Part shown: in pieces, positions 19,992 to 46,022 of the stretch
Numbering within the stretch: position 1 is the stretch's first letter
How the letters are laid out: each line of letters starts with the position of its first letter
Assembly (NCBI GenBank): GCA_015179125.1
Contig: WHVA01000034.1
Location: 62,001 to 126,000, forward strand
Length of the DNA stretch: 64,000 nt
Direction of reading: 5' to 3'
From: Gautieria morchelliformis
Lineage: Eukaryota > Basidiomycota > Agaricomycetes > Gomphales > Gomphaceae
The notes under the pieces: model-generated
Databases searched by the model: none
What the model was told of the DNA's origin: nothing
Seen by the model: only the letters and a program-made list of their open reading frames with translations
Made by a program: the position numbers and the translations under genes

Positions 19992-19996
19992 GACTC

Positions 19997-21511: not shown

Positions 21512-23466
21512 ACGATTCAAGATCGTCACACCGTACATAGCCGCTGCTTTTCACCAGTCACTAGAACACTTCAACCTCACCAACTTATACCCCAACATTG
21601 TACTAGATATCACCCAGGGCTCCCCGATTGGCACTCCGCCCACCCTCACCGAGACTTTTATTCCCCCGAACATGAAATCTGCACTAGACAAACCAGACTT
21701 AATAGATGAGCACATACAAGAAGAAATCACGGCCGGTCGCATCACAGGTCAGTTCACGATCGAAGAAGCACACACCATTTTTGGAGGCCACTTCCGGACC
21801 TCCCCTCTGGGTCTTGTCGAGAAAGAACCCGGCTCAGACAAATGGAGGCTCATCAGGAACACCTCAAAAAGGGATTCGCATGGCACAGCAGTCAACGATA
21901 TGCTTGACTCCGATGACTTCCCAACACGTTGGGGCTCAGCATGGCTTGTAGCTCAATACGTGAGTACCAGCCATTTTAACACCACCATCATATCACATCA
22001 CGCGCCATCCACACATCACACAACACGCACAAGCCACACACCACCACACAACCACACACACTGTGACCATGCTCACACTCTCACACCATCCAGCACATAC
22101 CAACCACGCACACGTGCACTCACTCGGCGCCACCACCCACCGTTCATCTCATCCACATCTCACCTCACACACCATCCCGTCGCACACCATGCTGATGAAC
22201 GTTCATCCCACAGCTCGCCACAGCCCCACTCGGCACCCAGGCAGCCTGCCTAGACCTGCAGAAAGCCTATCGGACGTGCCCCGTCCTACCTGCACACAAG
22301 CGCTACATGGCCATATCATGGCATGATGGCATTTACATCGATCACGTCCTCCCGTTCGGGCTGGCTACAGCCGGTGGTATACAAGGGACGATTGCAGATG
22401 CCATCATAGACATACTGGGTGGCCATGGCGTCAAAACAATCTTCCGTTGGGTGGATGACGTTCTACCCATGTGCGAGCCTGCTGGTGCTCTCACACACCC
22501 AGACACACCCACCCCTTTCCCACACACGCGTGATGAGAGCGCCTTTACATATGACATCGATCTAAAAACAATCACGAATGCAACCGACCCGCTGGGGGTA
22601 CCATGGCACCCCATGAGCACCAAGGGGCACGATTTCTCATTCACGGCGGAATACGTCGGCTTCACATGGGATTTAGCGACCCGCACGGTCGCGATACCTG
22701 AGCACAAATGCATCAAATACCTCGGCCATGTCATTTCATACACATCAGGCTACAAGGCCCAACTACTCCCAACCATGAAACTACTAGGCACATTGCAGCA
22801 CGTCACCTTCGTCCACATCCTGGGCCGATCATTCCTACCCGCCCTTGCAGACTCCATACCGAAGTTTGTAGCCAACAAGTACGCTTGGCGCTTCATAGAC
22901 AGGCACGTCCGCCTTGATCTCGAATGGTGGAAAGACACACTCCACATCCCCAACCTCTCCTGCTCGCTGCTCCCACGTGCCACTGTGGACAGTGATCTTT
23001 GGGTCGACACTTCGACCTCCTGGGGCGTGGGCCTCACGGTCAGGGACAGTTGGGCCACCTGGCGCCTCTTAAAGAAATTTTAAAATTATTTAATTTCATG
23101 TTGCTGGGCTGGAACAGGGACGGGCGAGACATCGGCTGGGCAGAAACCGTAGGCGTCGAAATCGCAGCCCTCTGGATCCATGCCCAGGGCATCACCGACT
23201 TGCATGTGCGTGTAAACAGCGACAATACGGGCGTCATATTTGCCCTTGTGAGAGGCCGCTCACGCAACCCACAGCGCAACGCATCCATCCGCCGTATCTC
23301 CATCCTCCTCGCACTGACCAATGTCACGATCGACACAAAATACGTACCGTCCATGGAGAACAGGGCGGATCTCGTGTCTCGCGGTGAGATGGGTCCACCC
23401 GACACGCGTCTCCACATCCCGTTCTCCCTCCCCAGGGAGCTCACTCCTTTCCTCACACATGCTTAG
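21483..23466 (+). CDS. Ngaro reverse transcriptase and RNase H, intron-containing
   Basis: DIRS/Ngaro-type polymerase. Exon 1 (21483-21959) has GGHFRTSPLGLVEKEPGSDK and WRLIRN of the RT fingers. Exon 2 starts at 22214 with LATAPLGTQAACLDLQKAYR (the first catalytic Asp) and continues to the FRWVDDVLPM box. RNase H follows, with DLWVDTSTSWG, VGVEIAALW and VNSDNTGVIF, and ends at 23464-23466. Between WRLL and GWNRDGRD (about 23070-23100) an AT-rich insertion of about 32-35 bp shifts the frame, so the RNase H part is out of phase with the RT. Gag overlaps the 5' end, and the recombinase ORF overlaps the 3' end by 8 bases. Confidence 0.8.
21960..22213 (+). other. Spliceosomal-type intron in the RT ORF
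   Basis: Starts gtgagt and ends catcccacag. Removing the 254 bases joins WGSAWLVAQY to LATAPLGTQAA in phase and restores the RT core. The sequence is CA-rich, low-complexity and without coding similarity, unlike the exons on either side. It is longer than the 48-62 bp introns of the host-type genes here. Confidence 0.7.
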
Positions 23467-24733
23467 ACGACGGGAGATTTTGGCTGCGCACTGTGCCAGC
23501 CCGCCACGTGCAGGAGAGGAGCTGACCAACAACACCTCCTTACCGCAACCTGCACGACGATGTAAGCCGCGAGTGTCACCTGACCCCAACAATTTTCTTG
23601 CCCCATCCCAGTTCCGCCCTCATGTCCTTGCTGCTGATCGTGCCACATCATGGCGAACCCCATATTCTATTGAACAAAGTTTAATATCACATTCTGCTTT
23701 CCCTCCTGAGCACATGGCGCAAATGCGTGAGGTCTGTTCCAACGCCGTAGTCAGAGGCACCCGTCAGGGCTGGGGCGCCGGTATCTTAAGGTTCAACCAA
23801 TATTGCGATTCCATCGCACTACCTGAAAGAGACCACATGCCCGCCTCAGAAGTACTCCTAGCACTCTTTGTGACCAATTGCAGGGCTGGCTCCATAAGTG
23901 AGTCCTGCATTTCAACCTGGCTCGCCGGCCTGCACCGGTGGCACCAACTCAATGATGCCCCTTGGCACAGTGGCGGCCTCCTAACCCTAGCCAAGAGAGG
24001 AGCGGCTACCGCGGCGCCACCATCATCCACACGCAAAGCCCGCAACCCAGTCACACTGGCACACATCAACTTCTTACGTGACAACTTGAACCTCACTAAT
24101 TCCTTCGATGCAGCTGTCTTCGCCATGGCATCTATGGCCTTCTGGGCCTGCTGCCGCCTGGGAGAGCTGACGATACCGTCGCACAATGCATTCGACCCTG
24201 CCACGCATGTATCACGCTCCACATCCATCACCTGCGGTGTCGCTAAACAAAGCCGTCACTTCACAACCATTCACATTCCTTTCACCAAGACCAAAGGCCC
24301 CCACGGAGATGACTTACAGCTGATCGACATCACTGAACGCAGCAACCCCATCGTAGCCTTTGAGCATCACCTGGCATGCAACACCTCTGTCCCCCCACAT
24401 GCCCCCCTCTTCGCATTCGAAACAGCGGATGGCGGCTGGGCGCCCATGACCAAACAGTGGTTCATGGAGCGTTGCAACAAGGTATGGTCCACTGGCACTT
24501 TCAATGCCGTCCTAGGTCATAGCTTCAGGATCGGCGGAACATCGCACCTGCTGCTCTTGGGGATCGATCCGTGGATCGTCATGGTCATCGGCAGATGGTC
24601 GTCAATGGCATTTCTGCTATACTGGAGACAGATAGAGGAGATTCTACCCAATTTCATTAGCGAGTCCTTCGAATCGGTAGCATCACTTACATCTTGCATG
24701 TCCCATCTCCGCCAGAACCTCCGTCTAACTTAA
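23459..24733 (+). CDS. Ngaro tyrosine recombinase
   Basis: A 425-residue frame with no interruptions. Catalytic signature residues are visible: Arg in WACCRLGELTIPSH, the HxxR box in LGHSFRIGGTSHLL, the Trp in IGRWSSMAFL, and the nucleophilic Tyr in LLYWRQIEEI. The N-terminal half contains the core-binding helices (RGTRQGWGAGILRFNQYCDS). It would join the circular DNA copy to the genome through site-specific recombination, which explains the lack of target duplication. The ATG at 23459 overlaps the RNase H stop (atgcttag). Similar fungal proteins are often annotated as DNA breaking-rejoining enzymes. Confidence 0.85.
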   Translation: MLRRREILAAHCASPPRAGEELTNNTSLPQPARRCKPRVSPDPNNFLAPSQFRPHVLAADRATSWRTPYSIEQSLISHSAFPPEHMAQMREVCSNAVVRGTRQGWGAGILRFNQYCDSIALPERDHMPASEVLLALFVTNCRAGSISESCISTWLAGLHRWHQLNDAPWHSGGLLTLAKRGAATAAPPSSTRKARNPVTLAHINFLRDNLNLTNSFDAAVFAMASMAFWACCRLGELTIPSHNAFDPATHVSRSTSITCGVAKQSRHFTTIHIPFTKTKGPHGDDLQLIDITERSNPIVAFEHHLACNTSVPPHAPLFAFETADGGWAPMTKQWFMERCNKVWSTGTFNAVLGHSFRIGGTSHLLLLGIDPWIVMVIGRWSSMAFLLYWRQIEEILPNFISESFESVASLTSCMSHLRQNLRLT

Positions 24734-24836
24734 TACAACTTTCCTTGAACTTCTCGCCCTTCATCGTTCACACCCCATTAGGGGGTCGCGAGCATGGCAG
24801 GCATACTCACGGTCCGCTGCTAAGCATCGGATTAAA

Positions 24837-25110
24837 GGGTGGTGGTATAGCCTGCCACGTCCTCGCGCTCGAGGCTCGTCGGCCTCTGACGCATTCCGAC
24901 ACAACACGTCATGGTATGGACGTGTTGTGGGTTGCACGCCCGCAGGGAGCTGCAACCAGGAGTTCCCGCCTTCCCGGCTAACTCCTGCGGATATCGCCTC
25001 CGGCCGACGAATCCCTCTGCCCCCATATTCGGCGGAAACACCTAACCTCCAGGTTGGTCTAGGTGTTTGCTGCCGCCCTTCCTCCCGTGATTCAAATACC
25101 CATTAATCAG
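24837..25110 (+). repeat. Ngaro B1 repeat
   Basis: 274 bp, aligned without net indel to B2. Contains an 11-bp-stem hairpin (cacaacacgtc ... gacgtgttgtg). Differences from B2 are mostly C/T and G/A. Confidence 0.9.
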
Positions 25111-25286
25111 CTGGGTAGTTGAAGCGATGATGAGCGCAGCGAGTCAAACGCTCCAACCGGGCTGATTAAGGTAGCTGAAGTAAGCTCTCTCTATAAATAA
25201 CAAACCCGTGATTTCGCACCATCACTCTTGCCTTTCGCCTCCATCTACCTACCCTGCTCCAGTGAGGCTTAGGCAAATTTTCTCTC
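25111..25286 (+). repeat. Ngaro A2 repeat (uninterrupted)
   Basis: 176 bp. Contains the empty form of the site into which the copia element jumped in A1 (gagtcaaacgctccaacc). Confidence 0.9.
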
Positions 25287-25323
25287 CCCTCCCTCCGCTC
25301 CCTATTTCCGCTCCCAGCGCTTT

Positions 25324-25597
25324 GGGTGGTGGTATAGCCTGCCACGTCCTTGCGCTCGAGGCTCGTCGGCCTCTGACACGTTCCGACACAACACGTCATG
25401 GTATGGACGTGTTGTGGGTTGCACGCCCGCAGGGACCTGCAACCGGGAGTTCCCGCCTTCCCGGCTAACTCCCACGGATATCGCCTCCGGCCGACGAATC
25501 CCTCTGCCCCCATATTCGGCGGAAACACCTAACCTCCAGGTTGGTCTAGGTGTTTGCCGCTGCCCTTCCTCCCGTGATTCAAATACCCATTAATCAG
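25324..25597 (+). repeat. Ngaro B2 repeat
   Basis: 274 bp, partner of B1, separated from A2 by a 37-bp pyrimidine-rich spacer. Its end (cattaatcag) marks the right end of the element. Confidence 0.9.
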
Positions 25598-26740
25598 CCG
25601 CTTCCACAGACTCAGGTCCGACTTCATCCTCATTCAATAGAAGTGTTGTCCTCCGACCCACCCGCATCGCCAGCCTCCTGGCTCTCAATGTCATTGCCCA
25701 CCAATTCCGCGAAGCCCAGCCCCACGTGCCCAATGGCAGCTCTCACGCTCACCCCCGGTCATTGGCGATCTGTGCGCCACCCAGCCACTCCCTGATCCAC
25801 CAGTGAATAGTTGAGTTACCGTGCGCAGTCCCTGCCCTTGAATACCCACCTAACACGTCCCGACCCACTCACGTGCGGTCGGAGGACCGTGAAAGCAACG
25901 AAGAAAGCAAGGTTATGACCTCATTGTTTGGTACCACGTTCGCTCCTGTGTCCCAAGTCAAGGGCTTGGATGGAGATGAAGTCATCTCTTTTGTGTTCTC
26001 TGTGCGTCTAATGTCTCCTTTTCTGACTCGCCGACACAAAATTTTGCAACGTAGGATCTGTCTGTACGAACTCAAGGCCTGTGGGTAAAGCCAACTTCAT
26101 ATTCAAAGGACGTGGGGCGCCGATAATAACCAACTTCTATATAGGTGCGTATTACGTTACCGAATCTTCGACATTCAGGTACGTGTTGACGTTCATCCCG
26201 GGGACGATCTTTTTTTTTTTTTTTTGTTCTCCAATTTATGTCTTTTGGGGCCGGGCCCTATGTAAGACGAGGCATACATGGGGACGATCTTGATGCCAGA
26301 CTATTGTCCCAGTCGTATGGAAAAGACATTCCTGTTCTCGCACAACACTATAGTGACCCCTACGACATCTACTCCACTACAGAGTGCGTAGTTGTGCGAT
26401 ATCTCGTGAAGGTAGTACTCAGGGCTCTTTCCCGCATGTTTCCAGGTTTCCGTGCGTCAACAGAGCTCACGAAGGTTCACTTTTAATGATTACGTGTGGT
26501 TCTGTGACGTATTCTGGTGCCCAGCACAGCATCTCTCTCGTTACGGAGTCCGTGTCAATCTTCGTGAGTCTGAGCAGAAGCGGAAGGCAGTTGAGCCGCC
26601 TGCTGTAGAGCCCAAAGATCAGCCAGCAGAAAGTTCGTCTCTATTGAGGTCCGGACATGGAACCTAAATTAACGCTGAAGTCACATCATGTACACTGTGT
26701 TTCATTAGCAATGATTCCAATATTTGCTTGGTTGTGCGAA
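25598..26740. other. Unrecognised, partly coding-like sequence
   Basis: Plus-strand frames at 26238-26486 and 26452-26667 read like degraded protein (PYDIYSTTECVVVRYLVKVV, DYVWFCDVFWCPAQHLSRYG) in two frames, but I do not recognise the family. A tiny retroposed insert at 26212-26279 interrupts it. Confidence 0.35.
26212..26279 (-). mobile_element. 68-bp truncated retroposon with poly(A) and 12-bp duplication
   Basis: The insert begins with a run of t (poly(A) on the minus strand) and ends at 26279. It is flanked by identical ggggacgatctt at 26200-26211 and 26280-26291. The 12-bp duplication and the tail match the LINE insertion at 13.6-16.6 kb, so LINE machinery is the likely source. Confidence 0.7.
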
Positions 26741-28299: not shown

Positions 28300-29900
28300 T
28301 ACCTTCTTATTATTTTAATTGACCTGTAATCAAGGGTCATCGAATTACAGCCATTTGTCGCCGTCCTTGTGAACAGATTCCACCTGGAAATTGGAGTTCT
28401 AGGACTACAAACTTTGGAACTTGAAGGCCGGATGCAACATCGTTGTGGTAACTATGTCTGGGCCCAGGCCGGCACTTGGCTGATAAGTCTGTGTTCATCA
28501 CCATGACATCAGTCCTACACATATATATCACGCCTGCTAGACACAGTGCTGGCAGTGAAATTCCCGTCAGCAAAGCGTTCATGTCTGGATTCTTTCGTAT
28601 GTGTCCTTTCAACAATGTCTTCCAGTAGGTATGTTTTAGCATGTTTTGCAACATTTTGAACATGTACCATAGGAATATTTGATGGCAAGAAGAGATAAAA
28701 ACATGTGTTATTAGAGTCCGGTTCAACACTAGTCTGCTCGCAACAATTCCTTGTGGAATGTAAGGTGCCTTCTCCAGGTCTGAGCATATGGAGATGTTCC
28801 TGAGTCTGATCCTGCTCATGTTTGACATCCACCTCCTTGCGTGCAACTCCACCGATGACTGGAAAGTGAATGACACGTAAATATAGCTCTGTAAAATGGT
28901 TTCCATTGTATGGGTCCGTGAGACGCCATCCATTCTTGCACCATAGGAACAGTGGCAAGCGGCGAGAGCATGTCTAAAAAAGATATTTCTGTCCATCAGC
29001 TCAAGCCCTCACAACTGCAACGTTCTCGCCAGGATAGAGCTCATTTAGTGTCTTGATAATTCAAGCTTTTGGCTGGTTCCATTTTATTTGCTTGCAAAGG
29101 TGTTGGATAAAATCAACAAAAGTGACAAGCTGTTCAAAGCTGGCAGCTTCAAGGAGACCAAGATTTTCCACACTAACCAGTGAAAATAGGTTTGAAATAT
29201 CACTAGAGTATATATATACAAACAGCGGAGCAATTCGTGCCACGGTAAGCTTAGGAGCGTGCTCGTCGTGGCCGGCGATGAGTCCATATGAGACATTGTG
29301 GGCCCTAGGCCCACAGTCAACTATATTACTTAATGGATTCTAGGGTTTGTCCATGGACATGTCCGCAGACCGGCGCTCCCCATGGCTGGGGCGTTCTGGC
29401 CCAGGACGAGGGCTCGGGCCAGGCTCGGGCTCGGCTGGGCTAAAGCCCAGGCCTGTGAGGGAGGGAATTTTTCAATAAATGTACATATGGTAGATATTTA
29501 CAGCTCGTTGCATGACATAAGGCGCGCGCCTTTTCTGAGTTTGAAAAAAATACCTACCTTGCGAGTGCAATTGTGAGCTCAATTCTACTTCGAATAGCAT
29601 GATTTTTTGGTACAATGACTCCACAAAAAATAAGCAACAAGCCTCATATTTGTATTCATGCAATTGAACACTATAAAATTTTCATCTTTTGTACATCGCT
29701 GGACACATGCTAGAATCCCCCCTCCTTGTGACCCAGTTCCATGATGAATCGAAATGACGCGCCTTGAGTGGCTTGCTTGTCACGCTCGACCAGCAAACGC
29801 TCTATGTCTTCAAAGGCAGCTGAAAAGTAGTGTTTTGCCATCTTTCCACAGTATCATACGTCATACATGTACATAACCTAGGGAGGCCCGCTATGCTACA
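28300..29900. other. No recognised gene
   Basis: A 219-codon minus-strand frame (28337-28996) and an overlapping one (28515-28958) look like fragments of one degenerate protein, but I do not recognise it. 29.34-29.47 kb holds the inverted GGGCT-rich repeat. A 44-codon minus-strand frame lies at about 29708-29842, downstream of the Tc1 gene; I could not splice it on. Confidence 0.35.
29340..29470. repeat. GGGCTTGGGC-type repeat, right member (inverted)
   Basis: Holds tccatggacatgtcc and ctcgggctcggctgggctaaagcccaggcc. Its reverse complement resembles 26770-26890. Confidence 0.35.
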
Positions 29901-29911
29901 TGTCTACAAAG

Positions 29912-31084
29912 CTATACATACCCTGAGTCATGAAACCACCCATGTGCATGTTTTAGTGTAACTTTATTGAGTGCTTCATAGAGAAAGAGATATGGCTTAT
30001 CGGCCTCACCACTCGCAATTTTGGCATGAAATCTTGCCCCATGCCGCCGGATATATGCTTTCACAAATGAAAAGCACTCCTCTATAGGGTTGAAGTCAGG
30101 TGAGTATGGTGGTAAATATAGAAGCTTGATGCCCCTAGGAAGTTGTTAGAAGTCTAGCACATGTGACATCGGAAATCGCTTACTTAGCATCGCACATTTC
30201 CTCAACCCCTTCAACATGGTGTATGGAACAGTTGTCAATCACCAGGACACCTCTCGGTTGCGGATACGGATTCATCTCTTCGAGCAACCCTTCAAGCCAT
30301 GACTTGAAAAGGTCGCCGTTGAATGAACCGCGAACTATCTGGCAGTGGAGGATGCCATCTAACGTGATCGCAGGAAGTACAGAATATCTGTAATATCTGT
30401 GAGGAAGAAGTGGACATTCTATAGAGCTAGTGCCTACCGATCCCCTCTTTGAAAATACGATTTTTTCCTAGCGCGTTTTCCCTTGAAGGCACGACCCATT
30501 GTGCGATAGGTGGTATGAAGATTCACCGCACTTTCGTCACCAAAGACCAGTCGCGAAGGGTCTTCTTGGCCTATTCTATACGCAAAATAATCCCGAGTAT
30601 CTTGGCAGCGCTCTGCAGCCACTTTAGAGAGCTAAAACACCGTAAGTACACAAATATGGCAAGTGGGCTCCAAACTTACCTTCTTGGAAGTAATGCCAAG
30701 CAGCTTTAGAGTCCTTTGAACTGTAGATATTGACACAATAATATTGCGTCGCTCAAAGAGTTCATCGACGATTTCATCCAGGTAGATGTCCGGGTTTTGA
30801 TCAAGCAGAGCAATAAGGACATTGACAGCATCTGAATCAAGGAGGGGAGTCTTTCCAGGCCTTGCATATGACCTAGGATCTCGTACTGCATCGCCGATCT
30901 CATTGTATACCTGTAAGACGCGTTGAACAACCCGGAGTGACATATTCAGGTTCTCAGCGATTCCTGACGGTGGCTTCTGAAGCGTGTGGCGCTGATAGAC
31001 GACTAGCTGTTTGACTTCTTTACAATAGCGATTACAATGCCTGACCTGACTGGTTGCATCGTATTCGGTGTCACCGTCTAACAT
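29912..31084 (-). CDS. Tc1/mariner-type DD34E transposase, four exons
   Basis: Cut-and-paste transposase. Exons 30680-31084, 30438-30631, 30184-30387 and 29912-30134 join in phase through introns of 48, 50 and 49 bp into 341 codons and a stop, the normal family size. N-terminal helix-turn-helix segments (GIAENLNMSLRVVQRVLQVY, IVSISTVQRTLKLLGI) are followed by the catalytic domain: first Asp in LVFGDESAVN, second in GVLVIDNCSIHH, Glu in YSPDFNPIEECFS with 34 residues between the last two. RYSVLPAITLDG between the catalytic boxes is typical. No stop or frameshift is seen. Terminal inverted repeats were not found by eye, so mobility is unproven. Confidence 0.85.
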
Positions 31085-31139
31085 GATGCGGAGGAAAGCG
31101 ACTGTTGCCACGTGATGGACCTGGTGCCACGTGACGGAC

Positions 31140-31660
31140 CAACTAGCTAGCACCCTCGGTAGATGACTAGACGTTTATTGAAAGCCTCAATCATGACTCT
31201 CGAGCTGGTGAGAGCTCCTTCATCATTGCTTTGTCACAAAGAAATATTTACAGCTTGCACAGGACAGCAACGGACTCTACATGTGCTGTCTAAGGGAAGA
31301 GATCTATTTCTCTCGGTGCATGGGCACCGAACCTGGCATACCAAGCACGGCGTCGCGCACATATGAGGTGATGGGCTCCAGGATGGAGTTGTTCTTTTGG
31401 AAGAAACTTCCTGTGGGGAACTCGAACAGAAATCGACGTACACGCTCTCGAACGATCGCTTTATGTTGGTGATACCATGGCTACTACCACCAATTAATTA
31501 TCCGTGCTCAACTTGGTTGAGGATGACATAGATGCATCGTGCGATGAATTTGGGGAGAAAGGACGTGATGGACAGGAGGAAAGCGGACTTAGTTTCGAGC
31601 GGGGGGGTGGCGACGTTGTGGAGTGTGGGGTAGATTCGGCAGGGTTGTTTGATGTGCCTC
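31140..31660. other. No recognised gene
   Basis: Upstream flank of the Tc1 transposase gene. Two copies of a cacgtgatggacc-like motif occur at about 31110-31140. No coding signature. Confidence 0.35.
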
Positions 31661-31663
31661 TGC

Positions 31664-33201
31664 TCACGCCGCCGCCAGGGCTGGTGTCATTGCCGGGGTT
31701 GTGTGTATTCGAGCTTGCGTTGCCAGCATTGGAATTCGCGTTGGCTTTGCCGTGGCTGCTGACATTGGAAGCCACGCATTCACACTAGACCACGTAGGTG
31801 CGCGCAAAGGCGTTTGGGGTGCAGGTGCTGATGCTGATGCTGCCGAAGCCGCACCAGCCGGGGCGACGGAACCAGGACGCGAGATCGACCCACCCGAGCG
31901 CATCGACATGGCACGCGCCGAACGCACCTGCGGTGGAGATGAACCAGATGACGCAGAGGGGGGAGAGGGTGCGGAGGGTGCAGATAGCGCAGATGTTGGT
32001 TTCGGCGGCGTGCTGCTGTTGCGGGTGGGCCTGGACGTTGGGCTGGACGTCGAGTGCGATACCGGGGGAACTGGCGCGTCCACCTCCATGTCCACATCGC
32101 CCACACCGCCCTCCCCATCCCTTTCCCCATCCCCACCCTCATTCTCGTCCCCGTCCATGTTCACGTCCTTAGCACCAGCATGCGCCGGCGACTCCTTGGA
32201 ACATGTACCTCCCACCATACCATCCGCGAGACGCATCCCAGGCCTCTTTCTCTTGTGACTTTCGCGCGTGAGGGAGACGTCGTTGATAGCTCGATGCGTA
32301 TCTTCGAGGTCAAGGGTGCGCAAAAATATGGAATCTGTTCCCTCAATCTCTTGTATCACGGTGCGAAAGCGTCTGTCCAGGCTGAATTTATTGATCCCGC
32401 CTTCTTCTGAAAGCGATATGGTCAACCAGGATGGGATGCGAGCACAATGCCACAATGGCCTTGTTGTAACGGCATACCACATGGGAAGAGACACCTGCAA
32501 CATTGTCAGCTTGAGTCAGTTAGTCGGGAATGAGAATTGTACAATGTGAGAGGGCTCCTTGGGGGATACATATATATTACTTAGATCAAGGTCAGCCAAG
32601 CTCAAGGAAAATGGTTGAAGTTCAGGATTGTCGTCATCGAGGCCATTGCATCCCCGAATGGCGTTAGAAAGAAGCATCATACTGCGCTCGGCGGTAAATA
32701 TTGCGTCCTCAACATCTCTTTGGTAATTGTCAGACATATTCTGTGTAGACTGAGTTCGGGCGCACAGCTCTCGCTGAGCGCAGGCGAGGAAGTATTCCTG
32801 AGCTGTTGAGAACGGACCTCTGTCCAGCTGTAGCTTATTGCGTCCATCTATGTAAAATGGCGGGCGTACAATTGGCCCGACGTGAAAATCATCTGAATTC
32901 GATGAAAATAAACTCCCAATGGCGTCGAAACGATGCCGAAAGAGCTTGATAGTCCAACGAGCTACTTGAGCAACAAGATCTTCCTGTTCGGAGCCCGTGA
33001 GGCTCGAAAAGATCATTGCTAGTTTGATGCCAGGGATCTATAAGATTTGTAGTTTTCAGAGGGTGAGGTATGTGAGATGTTGATACGAACCTTCTCTAAT
33101 AACATATGCACTCCCAGCGGATGTCCTGCGACTAAATTAAGGTGAAGCACCCGGGACACAGGGATCGATGTTTTTCTAGCCAGATAGTTCATCGTGGCCA
33201 C
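31664..33201 (-). pseudogene. APH-type kinase, 3' exons, separated from 5' exon by inversion
   Basis: Exons 33091-33201 (VATMNYLARKTSIPVSRVLH, LLEK), 32543-33037 (IPGIKLAMIFSS ... PFSLSLADLDLSNIYV) and up to 32494 downward (VSLPMWYAVTTRPLWHC) splice in phase through introns 33038-33090 and 32495-32542. Two catalytic elements are damaged: the loop reads LADLD where the family has HADLD or HGDL, and the metal-binding IIDW segment expected after SHI is absent. The last exon runs into a long Asp/Gly- then Ser/Pro-rich tail (32.2-31.7 kb) unlike the family. The acceptor at 33202-33204 is now preceded by exons of ribosomal protein L4; the native N-terminal exon lies inverted at 34499-34595. Confidence 0.75.
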
Positions 33202-33203
33202 CT

Positions 33204-33213
33204 ACAAAGCTCG
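33204..33213. repeat. Inversion breakpoint microhomology, left
   Basis: acaaagctcg, the reverse complement of cgagctttgt at 34629-34638. It lies in the intron just before the APH exon at 33201. Confidence 0.8.
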
Positions 33214-33248
33214 AAACATGAATATACAACCAATTAACGCTCACGTAC

Positions 33249-33419
33249 TGTGCACTTGCTGCACGACATCGAGACGAATGGGGGCAGTGAAAACTGCAGG
33301 CAGGGTAAGAGAGGTCGAAGCCTCTGTGGCAGAACATGCGTCAGAAGCAAGCCCTCAGCAAATGTCTTCTACTGACCACCAGACCCGGTACGAACAGTGA
33401 CTGTGGGACAAGAGGCCAT
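33249..33419 (-). pseudogene. RPL4: Ribosomal protein L4, exons 1-2, inverted
   Basis: ATG at 33417-33419 opens MASCPTVTVRTGSG (exon 33377-33419). A 53-bp intron (33324-33376) leads to exon 33249-33323, EASTSLTLPAVFTAPIRLDV, ending VVQQVH plus one base before a gtacgt donor. This is the conserved N-terminus of eukaryotic uL4. The continuation (K-SIAKNKRQ...) is not downstream on this strand but on the plus strand from 34646, and the phases fit exactly: the single base A plus AG gives the Lys codon. On this strand the donor now faces the APH acceptor at 33202-33204, in the wrong phase. Confidence 0.85.
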
Positions 33420-34498
33420 TTATGAGTTCTGTGGGTTGCTATTGCGCATTAGCCGTATTGTTATTTGGGGCTCGGTGCTACCTGACTTACTGCAAACCGA
33501 TGCGCACTTCCTTGAGGTCTTGAAGTTGTGAGAAAAACTTAGCTTTCAGTTCAGCAGTTGCTTGACCCACATGCCTGGCTCACTCCGCACTACTCGGCGC
33601 CTTGCTATTCTGCTGAACAGGCAATGGCTAACTTCTACCGCTTATAATTCTGCTATTCACAAATGCGACAAAATATTCGATATAGTCCAATTTTCCTGCT
33701 GAGACTCGGGTTCAGAAGACCTTCTTATGAGCATGCTGTCCTGACAGATGAATTTTGATTTCGTCAACCTCACTGCCACTAGTGACTACAACTGATCCAT
33801 ATTGGGCGTTCGAATGCCTTTATATACGGCCTATTCTCCTATACGGTGGTGTCTAGCGTATCCACCCTAGCCGTTAAGACATCCGAGTCTGTCCAGTCGC
33901 GGCGAAGGAGTCAAACTACCAAGTGCATCACAGCTTGCTCCGTCATCCCCACGAACAAACCACCTGCTACTCGGGCGCTCTGAAAACATGCACAGGGCCC
34001 CGTATTAACGCGAACAGCTATGGGCAGCTATGGGCTCTAACTATCAGGTTGCCTATGTTTCTGAACGGCAGCGTCGAACAAGTTCGTACTGTGTTCTCAA
34101 CCACATTTCTCCAGCTAGGACATGTGCTTATGTCTTGTCATTTCTACATGGCACTTGGGTGCCGATTTGAATCAATAGCCATGTGGGTGGCATGTGGCCA
34201 ACATGCGTACTCACTTACCTCACATCGATAACCATCATATCGCCTTCTTCTCTTGCTCACATATCATAAATGGCGTACACTCTGCCTGCTCTGGGGATAA
34301 ACTTTGAGGCTTTAAAGAGGCGGTCTTCGACAATATTGGCGTTGAGATGACAGAGTTGGAACTAGTGGGGAAGAGTAAGTCCTGCTGTCCAAGTCATAAT
34401 GAAGGGACAAAGGGCTTCCACTGAATCTGTGACACAGACGAGTATTGCAAGGTCTGATCCATATATTTTAATCCGGGCAATGTTTCTTATTGGAAATA
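33420..34498. other. Inverted intergenic region between L4 and APH 5' ends
   Basis: Probably the former shared promoter region of the divergent APH and L4 genes, now in inverted orientation. It also contains degraded first APH exon sequence: MAYTLPALGINFEALKRRSS at about 34270 and VEMTELELVG at about 34343. No other gene seen. Confidence 0.5.
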
Positions 34499-34595
34499 GA
34501 CAATCAACGTTACTCTTGCGGACGGGAAAGATATCATAGCTCGTATTCAGTCCTCATCTTTGCCGAGTTATGTTATAGAATCTGAGGTGGGCAAA
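34499..34595 (+). pseudogene. APH-type kinase N-terminal exon, inverted
   Basis: Reads TINVTLADGKDIIARIQSSS, LPSYVIESE, the beta-hairpin of the N-lobe of fungal APH-type kinases. ESE|GTGGGC ends the exon in phase 0, which fits VATMNYLARK at 33201 on the other strand (family consensus SEVATM). On this strand it is now followed by the L4 acceptor at 34645. Confidence 0.75.
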
Positions 34596-34628
34596 GTCGT
34601 CCTCTGCCTGCAATGAAATGCACCCTGA

Positions 34629-34638
34629 CGAGCTTTGT
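34629..34638. repeat. Inversion breakpoint microhomology, right
   Basis: cgagctttgt, inverted partner of 33204-33213. It lies in the intron just before L4 exon 3. Confidence 0.8.
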
Positions 34639-34645
34639 TTGACAG

Positions 34646-35796
<1,151 letters not shown>

Positions 35797-36556
35797 AATA
35801 CTCTGATACGATTTGAACATGCGTCTTATGTCCTATACCTAGTCATGCCCCCAACATGCGTTTAGGTGCTGATCTATGATCATTAAGTGCGGCAACAAAG
35901 AGACGTTTTTTTGGCGGAGAACGGTGCTCTTAACGAGCAGGTTGCTCACCGTTACTGCATTGCAGACTCCTGCTAGAGGCTGCACAATAGTCACTGAGGC
36001 TCGTTTTGGCATTGTGCAAGTTTCTGCCTAGTGTCGTCATTGAATCTGACGCGCACATGGGTCGTCTTCCCCTTATACAGTAATATAATTCTATGCTCTG
36101 TCCTCTTCACAACCAGCGACAGGGTCATTTTACGCCAGTGCCACCCACATACATAGCCATTGCTCAGCTCATCCCAAACGAAATCCTCCTTCAGTTCGTC
36201 TTCTGAAAGCTCTCATTGCAGCTCGTGGGGTCAGTCAACATTGGCGATAGCCTACTTATTAGTAACTCGGGGGTCGTGGCGTCTACACCAGAACACGTAT
36301 GTTGCAGGCGGCTGACAGGCTTCATTTCTGAATAAGGGGTGATGCATCGCCAACTTTCCACAGACAGTGTATTGTCATTTGCAGAAGAGACAACGAGGGT
36401 GTAAGAGCATATATAGTGAGATGGGCGTCAATGGATAAGCCGAAGAATGTCCTGAAAGACTGTGCATTGAAAGGATCAGTATCTTTATGAATACAAAAGG
36501 CTCCAATGCGAAAGATGAGAACATAGTTGACTCAATCGCCGAATCTGTGAAGCAAT
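35797..36556. other. No recognised gene
   Basis: Only short frames and no motif. It separates the L4 relic from the Serinc relic. Confidence 0.4.
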
Positions 36557-36557
36557 G

Positions 36558-37270
36558 CTAAAGCCTCTCGTCAAGCATATGGATATGAAACTTGACTGAC
36601 CGATCTGGCATGAGCACCGGAGCGACGAGGCTCCAAATATAAAGCACCATGCAAACCCAGCTGGACACGACACGCATCCATATGGCCGGCTTGGAGCGGC
36701 CAATGTAGAAGTTGGGCTCCTTTCCCGGATCTCCTTCAGTCGCCTTGAGGACTTGCCTGGAATATTGTGAGGATATTTTAACAGCGCGCAAGATGATCGA
36801 CATACCAATCCGTGAGTAACATTGCTACGTACATGGCACCCATCAAAAATATGGCATGGAACCATGCATACTACAATGTAAATTTGTCGTCAAATGTCAC
36901 ACAATAGAAATTTGGCAGCAAACCACACATTATAACGAGTGCCAGTACATTCATCGTCTCGTTCCTCCCCCGCAATGCCGTCATCTTCATCTTCAACATC
37001 CTCCTCATCCAGAGCAGATGCAGGGATGGCACCCGCCCCAACCGCCACCAAAAGTGCTTGATACCTTGGCGTCTCGGTCCTCGACAGCTGGGATGTGATC
37101 AACGTGACACCGCCATCAGAAGCCATATCATTCGTGAATTGGATCGCACCCTTTTTGTGCCTACCAACAAGGGCTTGGCTCTGTGTTGCGGCGTGGCTGG
37201 CCTCTTGCACGGCAGGATGAACGCAAATGATGGTGATAATACAAAGGGAGAGATTGAAGGAAATGAAAGA
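36558..37270 (-). pseudogene. Serinc/TMS1 membrane protein pseudogene
   Basis: C-terminal half of a Serinc-family protein (multi-pass membrane protein linked to serine-derived lipids). Pieces: SFNLSLCIITIICVHPAVQE (about 37250-37190), AATQSQALVGRHKKGAIQ, the acidic loop ALDEEDVEDEDDG, CTGTRYN, then after an intron YAWFHAIFLMGAMYVAMLLTDW and, after another (36757-36805), GRSKPAIWMRVVSSWVCMVLYIWSLVAPVLMPDR with a stop at 36558. The usual segment between PAVQE and AATQS, with several membrane helices, is missing, so there is an internal deletion. The N-terminal half is absent. Confidence 0.75.
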
Positions 37271-37364
37271 ATCGATTGAGGGTACACCTGTCACTGGCGA
37301 AGAATCCATACATGACACCTGTGCAGCTCCACAACTGGCTGGTTGTTGGTGACAAATGTGAGCC

Positions 37365-37500
37365 GCAGCGTGAGCTCGACGAAGTTATCGGTGCTGATCG
37401 GCTCCCTACCTTTGAGGACCGCGACAGCCTTCCGTATATGAATGCTGTTTGCAAGGAAATACAAAGGTGCCCAACCTTGGCAAAACCTGTCATAATGATG
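37365..37500 (+). pseudogene. Cytochrome P450 K-helix fragment
   Basis: About 40 codons read QRELDEVIGADRLPTFEDRD and SLPYMNAVCKEIQR, the J'-K helix region of fungal CYPs with an ExxR-like E-I-Q-R. Nothing of the heme-binding loop or N-terminus is nearby. It is a short captured scrap next to the Serinc relic on the opposite strand. Confidence 0.75.
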
Positions 37501-37571
37501 AGTTAGTATGAGGTGAGGCAAAAATTATCTTCTTCCCACGCCAAACGCTATCGCCAAAAATCTCCTCCAGC

Positions 37572-39152
37572 ATGACTAAAACCAGGCCTTCTCGAAAGGG
37601 CAAAGACGAGCCTGCAGCAAAAGAAGCTGCAGGCAAGTCTGGCAAGCGCAAGGCGGTCGGGAGTCCAGAACCCATGGAGCCTGAGAGGAGGGAATCAACT
37701 CGGCCGAAGAAAACTGTTAGACTCGATGAAGCCCTCAATACAATACGCCAGATCAGTCGCAACGTTGAATACTCAACTGAAGAAGACTCTGATTTCATTC
37801 CACATGAAACCGTTGAGGCTGTCAGCGACACCAAGTCTATCGCAGATGTGTCAATTCAGAGCACAGACGAGCTGGAACCTCCAGCGAAAGTGTCGAGGGG
37901 CAAGGGGAGGCCGAAAGGGTTGTCTGTGAAGAAGGTGTTAACCATTTGCAGTGAGTAAATAAAACTTCGACAGATTGATCAGTGTACTGACCGTCCTCAT
38001 TTAGCACTGGCGGTTATTGTACCTGATGGCCGTTCCAACTCAGGCGGTTCCCAGCAACTTACCATGAAGTCATCAACACCATGCAGTAGCTATAAGCATG
38101 ATTCATGAAGCAATGGGCTGTACTGGCGTAAAAGTGAAGCCGGAGGGGAAATACCTAGCGTACTCTGTGAAGGGGCTCGGCGGTAAAGGCATTAGCCTCA
38201 AGATGATGGGATCGGCGGACTGGATCACAATGCAGGAACATATCAAAACTTTGATCAAGAAGGATGATGAAATCATCACCGTGACCCTTGTTGTTGATAA
38301 GAAGGTATGCATATATCATGACATCATTTCAAACGCCGAGATTCACATCCTAAATATAGTACATGGAAGCACTTCGAAAGGAACTCGCACCTGTACCTGG
38401 TGGCAAACGAGGAAAAGTAGCCCATTTAGATCTTAGTGGCAATGCTACTGGTGGAAATGCGGCAGATTCCTTTGAAGAAGCTGAGCAACAATGCTTGAAG
38501 ACCCTGAAGCTTGGTATGAGATGCCAGACCTGTGTCCCGGGGAAGTATTGCAAGAGAAATGACATTGGTGCCCATGTTTGTTTCACCATGCCCCAGTTGA
38601 GCGCATGGGCACGCGCTCTGGTAAGTCTTCTTGGATAGCTACCGGACTGGCTAATAAATTTATTCATAGACTAATGAGGCACCCGGGGTTGATTATTCCT
38701 ATCCACCAAGGGGGGCGCTATTCCAGGACTTTTATATGAAACGGCCTGCGGGTACCAAACAAACGACGGCACCACATGATCTCACGCAAATGGCCGCATC
38801 TAATTCTCTTCAGAGTAATCTCCTGACTCTTTTATTGGGCATGGCCGCCGGAGCCGCACAGCCGGGACCAGTCACCACCCCTATTATCCCGATGCAAGAT
38901 ATATACAGGAACATTATCTATCCAGATATCGCGGCCTTTCTTGGCAAGGTAATTGAAGATACGCCACTTCGTGCCGAGCCCTTGAAGGGTCTCTGCACCA
39001 GTCTAGCAAACCAAGACTTTTACACTATTGATGAGATTGCCGAAGAGACCGAGGAGTGGTTCCGAAGTGACCCTTATAACCTCACGGCCGGTAATGCAAG
39101 GTTTGTTGTCAACATACTTAGGGCAGGTATGACAACGGCTCAGAGTGGATAA
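37572..39152 (+). CDS. Unknown five-exon gene, 455 aa, AT-hook-like segment
   Basis: Exons 37572-37950, 38005-38031, 38087-38304, 38360-38620 and 38670-39152 join in phase to 455 codons and TAA. The second intron uses a weak donor (gttcca); the others are canonical. The N-terminal 130 residues are charged and Lys/Arg/Pro-rich, with an AT-hook-like RGKGRPKG near residue 117, suggesting DNA or chromatin binding. A middle domain holds HEAMGCTGVKVKP and a Cys cluster CQTCVPGKYCKRNDIGAHVC that could bind zinc. The C-terminus is helical (YPDIAAFLGKVIEDTPLRAE, EEWFRSDPYNLTAGNARFVV). I do not recognise the family. Unlike its neighbours it shows no stop or shift. Confidence 0.65.
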
Positions 39153-39182
39153 CTTACTCACAATCCGCTATACTACATGTTT

Positions 39183-40520
<1,338 letters not shown>

Positions 40521-40525
40521 CCGAA

Positions 40526-42465
40526 ATGACTGGACATAGCACGCCCAAGGGCAAGAAAGCAAAGTTGTCAACGGGTCAGAAAACTTTACACAGCTTTTTC
40601 CGTTCTCCTTCCTTGAAGAGCCCAGAAGACCAGGGAAGTACAGCGGAAATGCAGGACCGTGAATTGGTTGAACTATTGGCACGAAAGGACAGAATTGATG
40701 TGGAGATTACCAAACGTTTAGAAGCCTCGTGGCAGAATACTCGTGCCAGCAGCAGCGGTAGGAACACGACTGACGCCATCGAGGTAGATTTAGACCAGGT
40801 CTCCAGCGGCAACACGGATGGCACAACATCAGTGTCAACTATTATACCTGGGATGTCACAAACACATCCTCGTGATCACGTTGCGTCGGGGTCCAAGCTA
40901 CCTGAACAGACATTCTTGTCTACAGTTTCTCCCCTCATCGATGTGAACCCAATCTTCCACCTCTTTGAGATCCCTGGACCTATGTGTAGACCCAGCAACG
41001 TTCGCGGTCAACAGTAATCCCCCTTGGTCACCACTCACACAGACCCCATATTCTTTCCTCGTTCAGGCTCTTTCAACCCTCTCACAGACGCGCTCTCGAA
41101 TTTTAATCCTCAACACACTGACAAATTACCTCTGCTTGATATCACTTTATGACCCTCCATCTCTTCTTCCGTCCCTTTATCTCTTGTCAAACACACTTGC
41201 CCCTCCTTATCTCTCAGTAGAACTCGGATTGGGAGTGATCATCATTTCCTGATCGATCCAGCAAGTATCCGGTCTGACTTCTGCTGCCCTGAGTAAACTT
41301 TACAGATCACTGGGCGATCCAGGGGACGTCGCTTTCGCTGCAAAATCGTCCGTGCGGACTTTGATTCCTCATTCAGCTCTTACCGTCCTTGGTGTGTATG
41401 GCACCATGCTAAAGATTTCTCGGGCGCAGGGTCAGGGTGCAGCCAAAATCAAGCAATCGCTTGTTGAAAAATTACTTCTATCTGCTAAGGGCGAAGAATC
41501 TCGGTATCTCGTTCGCACGCTTTGCCAAAACCTCCGAGTGGGTGCAGTAAGGTAAGTCAATTGCCATTGAATTGAAACAGACTTTACTGGCATTCAAGAA
41601 AACAATCATTTCGGCCTTAGCGCGTGCCATGGTCTTTCCTCCTCTGGACCCATCGGTGTCTAAGCATTCCAAGTGGCATGCCTCTCCTGAGCTGCTTGAA
41701 AATGTTCAACCCATGACTTCCAATGGAAAGAAAAAAATCTGTGGTAGATCCTGCTCGTCAGGAGCTAATAGAAATATTTGCAAATGCCGAGGCCTTGGTC
41801 AAACTGCTTTGTGCAACATCCTAATTTAGACAATATCGCAGCGGCGCTCCTATAGGTAGGGTTAGAAGGGCTAGCTGAACGTGTCCCCTTGGCTGTGGGT
41901 ACGTGCTCCGGAGTGACCATGGCGTCATTGTCCCTCTTTCCTAATTCTTGTAGGTGTACCTCGTCATCCAACCTTAGGATCTCCCATGCGTTCTTTGGAT
42001 GAGGTGTACGAATGACTTAATGAACAGCCCTTCGTGGCAGAATACAAGTATGATGGGCAGAGGGCTCAGTTGCATGCCTCATGAGGTTTGGATGGTACTT
42101 TGACCGTGAAGATTTTTTCTCGGCATCTTGAGGACATGACGGACAAGGTTTGTAGCCTCGGATAAAATCAACCCACTGCGATTTAACACACCCTACGACA
42201 CCTAGTATCCGGACGTCATTGCCTTAACAGAACAACTTTTCGCATTGCATCCTGAGCTATCTTCCTTTATTGTGGATGCCAAATTTGTCCCGTTCGACAT
42301 GAAGACAGGTGGACTAAAATCCTTTCAAGAGCTTTCACAGAGAGCCCATAAGGACGTACGACTTGAAGATGTGACTGTGGCCGTCTGTCTATTCATTTAC
42401 GAACTCATGTATCTCGACGTTGGATCCAGGACGGAGACAAGGAGAGTTGCGAGACGAAGACACTA
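40526..42465 (+). pseudogene. CDC9: DNA ligase I pseudogene, N-terminal to adenylation domain
   Basis: The first frame (40526-41017) has a PIP box QKTLHSFF near the N-terminus, for PCNA binding. The DNA-binding domain follows with LSQTRSRILILNTLTNYLCL, PSLYLLSNTLAPPYLSVELG and GEESRYLVRTLCQNLRVGAV in several frames. The adenylation motif EYKYDGQRAQLHA with its catalytic Lys lies at about 42040-42075, followed by a stop. FIVDAKFVPFDMKTGGLKSF and FQELSQRAHKDVRLEDV then run to about 42400. The OB domain is missing. Multiple frame changes and at least one stop exceed what introns can explain. Confidence 0.8.
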
Positions 42466-42469
42466 GTGA

Positions 42470-43700
42470 TGTCGACGACGAGCAGGGACTTCGAACGCTG
42501 AGATACAAAGACCCGTAAGCAGTGCGTGGGGCTAGTATGCACTCTGCAAATGTGTGGCTGACAGAGATCAAGTAAGCGTTCATCCGTAATAAGAAAACGT
42601 ACAAAGTATATCTGCCCCAGCTCCCAATAATGACTTAGGTCGCATACACTAAACTCAATAATGGAAAGTATCCAAGTCGATAAACCGACACGGTCATCAG
42701 CGAGCATTCAGCGTCAGCACCAGGCTAGACTAAGCTAGACTCACAACACCGGTCATACCCCCTCAGACATTTGCCCCGCTTGACGGCCACACCCACCCGA
42801 TGAAATACCATAATATCCGTAGCCCAACTACAGCTCCAACGATAAGTACGAGGAGACAGTACTGCTTGAGCGAACCTGTGCTCCCGAATGCATGTGCGGC
42901 TCGCTGCGACGACTGGGCAAGGGAGCCAGCAAATGTAGTGAAAGTTTTCCCTTGTTTGAAGGGGGATGTGAGGGAAACAGTGGGAATACTGAATGGCGTC
43001 GCTGTCGCTTACCGTTTCGTCCAATGTGGAGTTCTGCCGCTCAACATCATCATAAATATCTGTTGTTACATGACGCCAGCATCAGTGCAATGCACCTCAT
43101 ACAACTTGAAGCATTAGGTGACACACACGCCTCTCAATGTGCGGATTTTGGAGTGCAGTGTGTCCAGTTGTTGGTCATTCTGCAATTCGTGGCGGCGGCA
43201 CGAGAGGAACCCATTGGTATTCAAGCTCCGAATATGTACACCTGCGTTTACTAGCACCATACTTACTGTAATGGACTCTCTGCTCTAGTGCTGCTCCGGC
43301 CTCCCTGGCTGCTGTCTCTGTGGCCTAATCGTCCAATTTTGCTATCAAGCTACTAATTATCGAGATGCAGGTTTACAATAGCTGCGACGGGTGGCTTCGG
43401 CTAGCGTGATTCATTTTCAGAACACCAGGCCTATCGGAAATGATAGAATGTATAGTGTCTATCAAATACTTTGGAGTCTTGCCTAGAATTATCCGACCTG
43501 GATAGCCATCTGAAAATTTCTCCACAATTGCCATAGAATTTCACAACATGCATGGTTTATGTCGGAGTGGGTGGCTGAGTGTATTTAGAAAGTCGTTACG
43601 CATGGTATGTCTTTACCCCCTGAATTCGTGGCTAATGATTCAGGATACGGGTGCGTTTTATACTCCCCTTTTGTCAGGTCTAGCTCTAATAGTTAGTTTT
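42470..43700. other. No recognised gene
   Basis: Short frames on both strands, none with a motif I can name. Confidence 0.4.
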
Positions 43701-43717
43701 ATTTAGAGCACCTGCTC

Positions 43718-44070
43718 GTGCATACGCTACCCAACCACCAGCCTATCGCCGATAGTTTCCGCACACTGCTATGTGCTACACTTCTGCAACCATCTGCTAT
43801 CTTGCCAGCACTTTGGTACATAGGCCGCTTCCCCTTCTTTTTCAGCGTCTTCACCTACAATTCTAAGTCCCAAAGCAAGGAGTTTAAGTTTCGTCGGGAA
43901 CTTCTTGGTGAAGGGTCCCAAGGTTCAGGCTTGGAACGAACGAGACTGCTGTTATAGGCGTGCGCATGCACCATTTCGACTGCTTCTCCTTGGCGTTATG
44001 CTTGCCAACAAGTGGCTCGATGACAATACGTTTTCTAACAAGACATGGTGTGTTATTTTGCTGTGAGGGC
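43718..44070 (+). pseudogene. Cyclin-box fragment (Pcl/PHO80-like)
   Basis: In two frames: an N-terminal piece PSAILPALWYIGRFPFFF and, at about 43918-44060, AHAPFRLLLLGVMLANKWLD followed by DNTFSNKTW, which is the core of the N-terminal cyclin fold. The helices between them are disordered by a frame change. Only about 100 residues remain. It could come from any cyclin of the Pcl/PHO80 group. Confidence 0.6.
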
Positions 44071-44140
44071 AACACTAATGACGAAGCCACAACCAAAGAT
44101 ACTCAAGGAGATAAGAGCCGATACTAGGACAATGACCAAC

Positions 44141-44220
44141 TGTGTAGTGGGTATCCTCAGGTTATAACTCTACCAATGATAGATACATGGGGACTTGCCT
44201 GTGTAGTGGGTATCCTCAGA
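44141..44220. repeat. 20-bp direct repeat, 60-bp spacing
   Basis: tgtgtagtgggtatcctcag occurs at 44141-44160 and 44201-44220. Confidence 0.85.
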
Positions 44221-44289
44221 GATCAAGCTGAAGAAACGCCACCACACGGGCTACAGTCTTATAGCGCTGGCAAGGCTTACATAATAGGG

Positions 44290-44447
44290 GAGACGGAAAC
44301 TTGTAGAAGGTTATGGAAAGTGATGGAAGGTCATGGAATGTGACATGTGGCGGGAGGTGACATGTGACAGAAGGTGATGGAAGGTTATGGAAACTGATGG
44401 AAGGTGACGGAAACTGATGGAAGGAAATAGAAACTTGTGGAAGGAAA
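44290..44447. repeat. Short-unit minisatellite (GGAAGGTGATGGAAAC type)
   Basis: Degenerate 10-15 bp purine-rich units such as atggaaggttatggaaactg recur for about 150 bp. Confidence 0.8.
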
Positions 44448-44585
44448 CGCGTGAACCCTGACGTTTGCCTTGCCTCTCTAGTCTAGTCTAGTATGTTTGA
44501 CCACATCAATAGGCGTCAAGTATCTGGTGTTCCCATGCGTGTGCTGAACAGGCTCGAGAGCCTTGGTCTTGATCTTCTTTCACAT

Positions 44586-45128
44586 GACTTGTTGATGCTT
44601 CCCCAGCGTGGGAACAATGGCTTGACCACATGCAGATCTACCATCGTTCCTTTGCGCCGTACCCCGAACCCATCGGACCTCCGAAAGATACACTGCACAT
44701 CATCATTCGTCGCATGATCGAGGACCTCATCCTTGCTGGTTCGCCACCGATGACCACTGGAGTCCTTCCTGAACCTGTTTTCCTCGGACTGGAAGAGCGT
44801 AAGAAGGAACGTGAGTGAGAACGGCTCGTCAAGGAGCAGGTCAAACTCCTTGATCTTGACCTCGATGAAGACGGACCTCTCAGAGAACAATACCTGGCAA
44901 AGAAGCCCAGGACGGCCGATCGGCTCGAGGGAGATAGGAAGGCGATTGAGCATATGACGAAGGGGCTTCCACCACCAGCTGAATGGTGTCCTGCCGCCGA
45001 TCCGCCGATCCACCGCGCGAGGCCAACCTATCAAGCTGTACAGAGACCACCGCGTGCCCCCGTCTTAGCTCATGCGAACGCGCACGTTCCTGAGACCGTG
45101 TTACACCTTCAGCAAGCTAATGGGTAGT
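44586..45128 (+). CDS. Unknown charged protein fragment
   Basis: One frame reads SPAWEQWLDHMQIYHRSFAP, ILAGSPPMTTGVLPEPVFLG and LDLDLDEDGPLREQYLAKKP, and ends at a TAG at 45126-45128, interrupted once by TGA at 44816-44818 (GAACGTGAGTGAG, which could instead be an intron donor). Composition is even and protein-like, with a Lys/Glu-rich helix. I do not recognise the family, and no convincing start is visible. It may be a pseudogene or the last exon of one. Confidence 0.4.
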
Positions 45129-45129
45129 T

Positions 45130-45990: not shown

Positions 45991-45998
45991 TAATAGAC

Positions 45999-46022
45999 AA
46001 TATTAGTTTGTAATATATATTA
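45999..46022 (+). repeat. Candidate terminal inverted repeat, left
   Basis: aatattagtttgtaatatat followed by atta pairs with 48851-48875 (tacaaactaatat core). The true end may lie slightly further out. Confidence 0.5.

Follow-up and report, generated by a model that had tools for sequence, protein, structure and literature searches.

Staggered double-strand breaks are held responsible for inversion O8 of Drosophila subobscura, whose duplicate, in passages of the paper describing it, corresponds to just one of the two breakpoints in the standard arrangement (PMC5080602). In fungi, passages of two further papers describe a hAT element that transduplicated histone H3 in Pseudocercospora fijiensis and its relatives (PMC6710886) and cases of transduplication from Pyrenophora tritici-repentis, among them a Tc1/mariner element with an extra open reading frame (ORF) (PMC3538342). 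Here we set beside these systems a locus of the false truffle Gautieria morchelliformis, a gomphalean basidiomycete. It lies in a 64-kb stretch of DNA (the window), part of contig C382 of a draft assembly (122 Mb, 1113 contigs), and concerns a divergent pair of genes, one for ribosomal protein L4 and a kinase-like one that we call APH. We think it quite probable that positions 33204-34638 of the window were flipped, likely by the rejoining of staggered breaks, inside a copy of this pair that was likely made by a transposon and was very likely already dead.

As in the staggered-break inversions of D. subobscura (O4, O8, and others), the inverted duplication is present only in the inverted arrangement, according to the passages on those cases (PMC5080602). 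The same passages present them as polymorphic chromosomal inversions with gene-containing duplications, whereas the G. morchelliformis case measures 1.4 kb, has a 10-bp duplication and sits in likely dead fungal DNA. With the histone H3 copies of P. fijiensis the locus would share the capture and multiplication of a housekeeping gene by a DNA transposon. It differs from what is described there in having a Tc1/mariner-like carrier, an intron-bearing stretch of 5 kb across several genes, three copies rather than hundreds, a CpG-type decay in a basidiomycete, and a later inversion (PMC6710886, in part). The likeness to P. tritici-repentis lies in extra sequence between terminal repeats of the Tc1/mariner superfamily that was multiplied in the genome; passages of that paper count 46 members, 31 of them almost identical, whereas the copies here are few, diverged and rearranged (PMC3538342). 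The locus is a tidy case of kinds of event already known. It is resolved to the base pair, and because the uninverted state, the intact donor and the sister copies are all in one genome, the cause of a small inversion can be separated from its consequence. It also points to a transposon that multiplied a ribosomal-protein locus in a basidiomycete. In a search of the open literature (titles and the starts of abstracts), no work on this locus was found among the matches listed, one of which names G. morchelliformis together with transposable elements.

Inversion within the L4/APH gene pair

The window was compared with three other loci of the same genome, on contigs C836, C451 and C226. C836 is taken as the native donor, and the other two and the window are derived. 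Junctions and genes were compared on fetched stretches of 23000 (C836), 14000 (C451) and 26000 (C226) bases, and block by block the copies are 95.5-98.3% identical. Positions 33205-34640 of the window have four matches in the host genome, the window itself on the plus strand and C836, C451 and C226 all on the minus strand (96-97%); the flanks of this stretch match the same three copies on the plus strand. The inversion is real and, since all three other copies are uninverted, the window carries the derived order. The 1.4-kb inversion that a preliminary description of this DNA had proposed, swapping the 5' parts of the divergent pair, is borne out by these three copies. The exons lie as follows.

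33377-33419, minus strand: L4 exon 1, moved to this strand
33249-33323, minus strand: L4 exon 2, moved to this strand, ends in phase 1
34646-34788, plus strand: L4 exon 3, with a nonsense codon at codon 50 found only in the window
34841-35408, plus strand: L4 exon 4, with a 2-bp insertion, common to all derived copies, that shifts the frame at residue 194
35462-35651, plus strand: L4 exon 5, with a 4-bp deletion relative to C836
35704-35795, plus strand: L4 exon 6
34270-34374, plus strand: APH exon 1, moved to this strand, with a 1-nt deletion
34438-34451, plus strand: APH exon 2, 14 nt
34500-34586, plus strand: APH exon 3, ends in phase 0
33091-33201, minus strand: APH exon 4, starts in phase 0
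32544-33037, minus strand: APH exon 5, with a codon deletion common to all derived copies
32273-32494, minus strand: APH exon 6, cut at 32273; no derived copy has its 3' end or exon 7

This layout is the one first described, with L4 exons 1-2 on the minus strand and 3-6 on the plus strand, the N-terminal part of APH on the plus strand (34270-34586) and its remainder on the minus strand (33201 to 32273). The splice phases hold as well (the L4 codon between exons 2 and 3 is split 1/2, and APH exons 3 and 4 meet in phase 0), as does the placing of both breakpoints in introns (L4 intron 2 and APH intron 3). What had been taken for a single N-terminal APH exon consists in fact of three, with lengths in C836 of 106, 14 and 87 nt. 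The inverted segment and its ends are the following.

33204-34638, no strand: inverted segment including both scar 10-mers, relative to the three other copies
33204-33213, minus strand: left junction scar, an inverted second copy of CGAGCTTTGT, with ACAA microhomology with the APH-intron side and about 5 bp (CTAAG) lost
34629-34638, plus strand: right junction, the 10-mer CGAGCTTTGT in its original position in L4 intron 2

In the uninverted state the left break region (APH intron 3) reads CCTACAA-CTAAG-TCAGGG and the right break region (L4 intron 2) reads ATGTTT-[C/T]GAGCTTTGT-TTGACAG. The left junction of the window reads CCTACAA-AGCTCG-AAACAT and its right junction CCCTGA-CGAGCTTTGT-TTGACAG, with about five bases (CTAAG) missing at the left break and joins that are ambiguous by ACAA (4 bp) at one junction and by C (1 bp) at the other. 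The 10-mer CGAGCTTTGT has exactly two copies in the window (shuffled sequences, n=100, gave a mean of 0.07, a single one of them reaching this number), and it occurs once (first base C or T), on the L4 side only, in each of the fetched stretches of C836, C451 and C226. Because it is single in every uninverted copy, the duplicate is a product of the inversion event, and what looked like a repeat shared by the breakpoints turns out to be a scar. The ancestral breakpoints, both inside introns of 52-53 nt, share just 4 bp and 1 bp and hold no recombinable repeat. An inverted duplication at both junctions, a single ancestral copy and the lack of a repeat common to the two breakpoints are thus all found and, as far as sequence can tell, the junction pattern is the known signature of a staggered-break inversion and not of recombination between repeats.

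In the mechanism that we propose for the window copy alone, a staggered break of about 6-10 nt in L4 intron 2 would have been filled in, duplicating the 10-mer, and the break in APH intron 3 would have been trimmed by about 5 bp, after which the ends would have been joined with 4-bp and 1-bp microhomology. That both breakpoints are intronic has a chance of about 0.04 if they fell at random within the two gene spans, as calculated with a six-exon APH model of C836 that ends early, its seventh exon having been recognised only after homologue alignment; we treat it as coincidence.

The best alternative is template switching, in which a replication fork jumped to the opposite strand and back. Events of this kind also leave microhomology, short duplications and short losses, and the 4-bp (ACAA) and 1-bp microhomology, the short duplication and the short loss seen here all suit it. 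On the other hand, a 1.4-kb flip with no other change at its ends is the simplest product of end joining, and the junctions appear to hold no positive sign of a replication error. We regard template switching as unlikely, though deserving serious consideration. A misassembly, with one of four near-identical copies joined the wrong way round, is much less credible. The high identity of the copies and the number of contigs in the draft would allow for it, and the mycorrhizal genome survey that names G. morchelliformis (PMC7550596) sequenced by Illumina, PacBio or both, its passages on sequencing naming neither for this species. But an assembler error is not expected to give a 10-bp inverted duplication together with a loss of about 5 bp, and no one copy stands out clearly as the nearest to the inverted stretch (97.4% identity to C451, 97.9% to C226, 97.6% to C836), although this stretch does resemble each of the three slightly more than most of the flank blocks do.

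Decay of the gene pair and the predicted chimeric products

The L4 gene of C836 is intact, with six exons (43, 75, 143, 566, 194 and 92 nt), five introns of 52-53 nt each and 370 codons plus a stop. It matches PF00573 and PF14374 and the solved 60S L4 chain 8esq_C (query residues 2-353), its translation is identical to the public protein P0001, and 325 of its 370 residues are identical in Sphaerobolus L4. Relative to it the window L4 has 19 missense changes, 7 silent ones and 1 nonsense change (Y50), and at 15 of the 19 missense sites C836 and Sphaerobolus have the same residue. All four derived copies of exon 4 carry the 2-bp insertion (codon 194): one each in the window and C451, and two in C226 as tandem pieces. 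The nonsense change at Y50 and the 4-bp deletion in exon 5 are found in the window only, and C226 carries a private nonsense codon, at Q59. A second cytosolic L4 elsewhere in the genome was considered and rejected: a PF00573 search of the host genome gave nine matches, eight at the four loci and one at C160, a 260-residue L4 in a single ORF that, by its look only, we take as mitochondrial and not cytosolic.

The C836 APH gene has exons of 106, 14, 87, 111, 498 and 279 nt plus the seventh exon, is open through exon 7 and aligns with homologues from Ramaria and Sphaerobolus. The public L4 and APH proteins of Sphaerobolus SS14 come from contigs that differ in length (570480 and 1732546). Its match to PF01636 scores 20.4 bits, below the curated cut-off of 23.2, so that "APH" is a family-level name only. 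All three derived loci lack one codon, for a residue that both the Ramaria and the Sphaerobolus homologues have, and all three lack everything beyond 32273. C451 lacks 1 nt in the first APH exon, three codons from the 1-nt deletion of the window.

In a comparison of the four copies over 4322 gap-free columns (98 of 4420 were dropped), private changes number 67 in the window, 53 in C451, 54 in C226 and 51 in C836. Those of the type C>T or G>A make up 46, 36, 37 and 12 of them, respectively, and 33, 27, 30 and 5 are of this type and at CpG. In fungi, the dinucleotide signatures that C-to-T mutation leaves in transposons include CpG (PMC4352252). In C836, 26 private changes read T>C or A>G against the other copies, a pattern to be expected from an earlier C>T decay common to the derived copies. 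Because the 22 columns that divide the copies two against two are split 9/8/5, the three derived copies would have diverged nearly together. Since the derived copies share the L4 frameshift and the APH truncation, the inversion, which is found in the window only, very likely came after the death of both genes. The preliminary description had rightly seen that both genes are lesioned and had left the order of events open; from the shared lesions an order of capture, lesions, multiplication and then inversion can be inferred.

Two chimeric introns span the junctions.

33202-33248, minus strand: chimeric intron, 47 nt, GT-AG, with the donor of L4 intron 2 and the acceptor of APH intron 3
34587-34645, plus strand: chimeric intron, 59 nt, GT-AG, with the donor of APH intron 3 and the acceptor of L4 intron 2

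Both keep GT-AG ends and a normal length in the rearranged locus, where their phases clash, and because of this clash the predicted chimeric mRNAs are out of frame. Canonical splicing of L4 exons 1-2 to APH meets a stop after VHSGHDELSG, and that of APH exon 3 to L4 exon 3 has L4 read out of frame. The swapped front ends would not be expected to give working proteins. The only open chimeric frame, both canonical chimeras failing the in-frame test, is that of a public "L4" model, P0094 (310 residues), which bridges the inversion junction. It starts with MTELELVGK, nine APH codons of exon 1 (34347-34374), enters L4 at 34679 and passes the frameshifts by means of implausible introns of 35 and 20 nt that remove the lesions; the introns of intact L4 have 52-53 nt. 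P0094 is most simply explained as a construct of the gene finder. The public "L4" models P0004, P0005 and P0094 all derive from decayed copies, which is a warning for their use.

We therefore set little store by the proposal that the inversion struck functional native genes and produced working reciprocal chimeras through an exchange of promoters and first exons, such an exchange being the consequence first suggested for it. The two GT-AG introns of 47 and 59 nt and the P0094 model, with nine APH codons and then L4, speak for it. Against it stand the frameshift and the APH truncation common to all derived copies, the phase clash on both sides, the nucleotide missing from the first APH exon in the window, the very short introns that P0094 needs, and the number and placing of the missense changes in the window L4. 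It appears to us highly improbable. The same low expectation applies to the idea that a flipped bidirectional promoter might drive P0094 as a real gene, with nine APH codons spliced onto L4; if true, one small inversion would have made a new expressed gene out of a dead pair borne by a transposon. Least probable of all, and rejected, is a flip by homologous or microhomology recombination between inverted 10-mers already in place, as the preliminary description implied: it correctly saw two copies, which now flank the inversion in inverted orientation, but the fetched stretches of all three uninverted copies have the 10-mer on the L4 side and none at the APH side.

A probably captured segment and its carrier element

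The inversion lies within a segment for which we propose C836 as the source. The parts of the element copy in the window are the following.

32273-37323, plus strand: captured segment from the C836 locus (APH truncated at its 3' end, L4, intergenic DNA and a truncated Serinc gene)
31615-32273, minus strand: fragment matching C704 (92%; a 752-residue ORF there), joined to the truncated APH
29498-29707, plus strand: left terminal inverted repeat of the carrier, about 211 bp
29912-31174, minus strand: broken pieces of a Tc1/mariner-type transposase (HTH, DDE_3)
29498-45647, plus strand: extent common with the C226 element copy, in pieces

That the window is the native locus was rejected, as C836 holds intact L4, APH and Serinc genes (its Serinc ORF has 378 residues). 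Positions 32273-37323 match C836 in collinear pieces, with some DNA in C836 only. The borders 32273 and 37323 cut through APH on one side and Serinc on the other, which sets the direction of copying, with C836 as the source.

The Pfam scan covered the window stretch homologous to the C226 element, and the HTH and DDE_3 domains were seen there: DDE_3 in three pieces (two over the cut-off) and HTH_Tnp_Tc3_2 below the cut-off. The C226 element itself (217243-235141) measures 17.9 kb from one terminal inverted repeat to the other, and its inverted ends of about 211 bp, which enclose the L4/APH segment, are 95% alike. Ends of a similar kind occur elsewhere in the genome, and five that were read at base level fall into two interior types. 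When joined, the C226 flanks match a related unoccupied site (C226:274039-274238) over all 202 bases at 85%, which makes it most likely that all 17.9 kb moved as a single unit. The element ends abut TA on both sides, and the related empty site has TG there. The Tc1/mariner superfamily is recognised by a DDE transposase of the DDE_3 type and a TA target. We call the carrier Tc1/mariner-like, the TA target being seen indirectly.

In C226 host gene sequence lies between terminal inverted repeats, the homologous stretch of the window holds transposase pieces, and there are three derived loci and a separate donor. It is likely from this arrangement that a transposon captured and multiplied the L4/APH segment, and the captured C836 piece would fit transduplication as passages of the Pyrenophora paper define it (PMC3538342). 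In the course of events that we propose, a native C836 stretch of 5 kb would have entered a Tc1/mariner-like element, as its borders suggest, truncating APH and Serinc. The 2-bp frameshift in L4 would then have arisen before the copies parted, and the segment would have come to its three further sites (C382, which holds the window, C451 and C226), where the copies differ mainly by C-to-T changes, mostly at CpG.

Several points weigh against this reconstruction and the staggered-break inversion that would close it. The duplication has just 10 bp, of which 4 may be microhomology, and template switching fits nearly as well. The inversion is known from assembled sequence alone, which leaves room for a misassembly. 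The copies form a star (the 9/8/5 split), so the order of events has the shared lesions, and no tree, behind it. The window is without a second terminal repeat and C451 begins at a contig end, transposition as a unit being best shown in C226. What serves as the empty site is a related repeat of 85% identity that has TG and not TA at the target, and dozens of places match the right flank used in that search. As to the terminal repeat, no second one was found in the window, where the best of 25 shown among the 33 inverted-repeat pairs around the element has 25 nt at 80%.

C226 has an inversion of its own (220231-232144, 11.6 kb, equivalent to 32491-44053 of the window), and a tandem duplication of about 640 bp inside its L4 copy. 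Because the window, C451 and C836 run on unbroken at 32491, C226 is derived at this end; the other end was compared with the window only, of which about 400 bp (near 44054-44463) have no match in the C226 copy. Two of the three derived copies thus carry independent inversions.

Beyond the captured segment, positions 37362-37473 are a P450 shard present also in C257, C139 and C433, and 37472-39951 are common with C432 (87-91%) and others. Three short pieces, 31502-31615 (114 bp), 37323-37362 (40 bp) and 39950-40101 (152 bp), are collinear parts of one repeated family in which captured DNA replaces interior stretches; the 114-bp piece matches at least 34 other places. C432:7370-12402 is a related element in which the window blocks 37472-39951 and 29497-31496 adjoin in another relative orientation, so that an older rearrangement separates the element forms. 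Just right of the end of the element copy lie a repeat with dozens of genome matches (45990-47400) and, beside it, a DDE_Tnp_4 transposase ORF (47465-48412, minus strand).

Other features of the window

A search of a plasmid collection gave no match, and none was found in an Rfam scan of the window. The region 20001-26000 has a strong GC skew (-0.20 to -0.27 over 6 kb) and long plus-strand ORFs, of which the two that were scanned (19889-21511 and 23318-24733) have no Pfam match. Positions 57641-63304 (minus strand) hold Helitron-type ORFs (PIF1 helicase, Helitron_like_N, DUF6570). At 1918-3726, inside long minus-strand ORFs, lie 14 tandem units of 129 bp that are 91% alike; they resemble a repeat-domain gene that was amplified recently, of WD40-like type judging only from the length of the unit.

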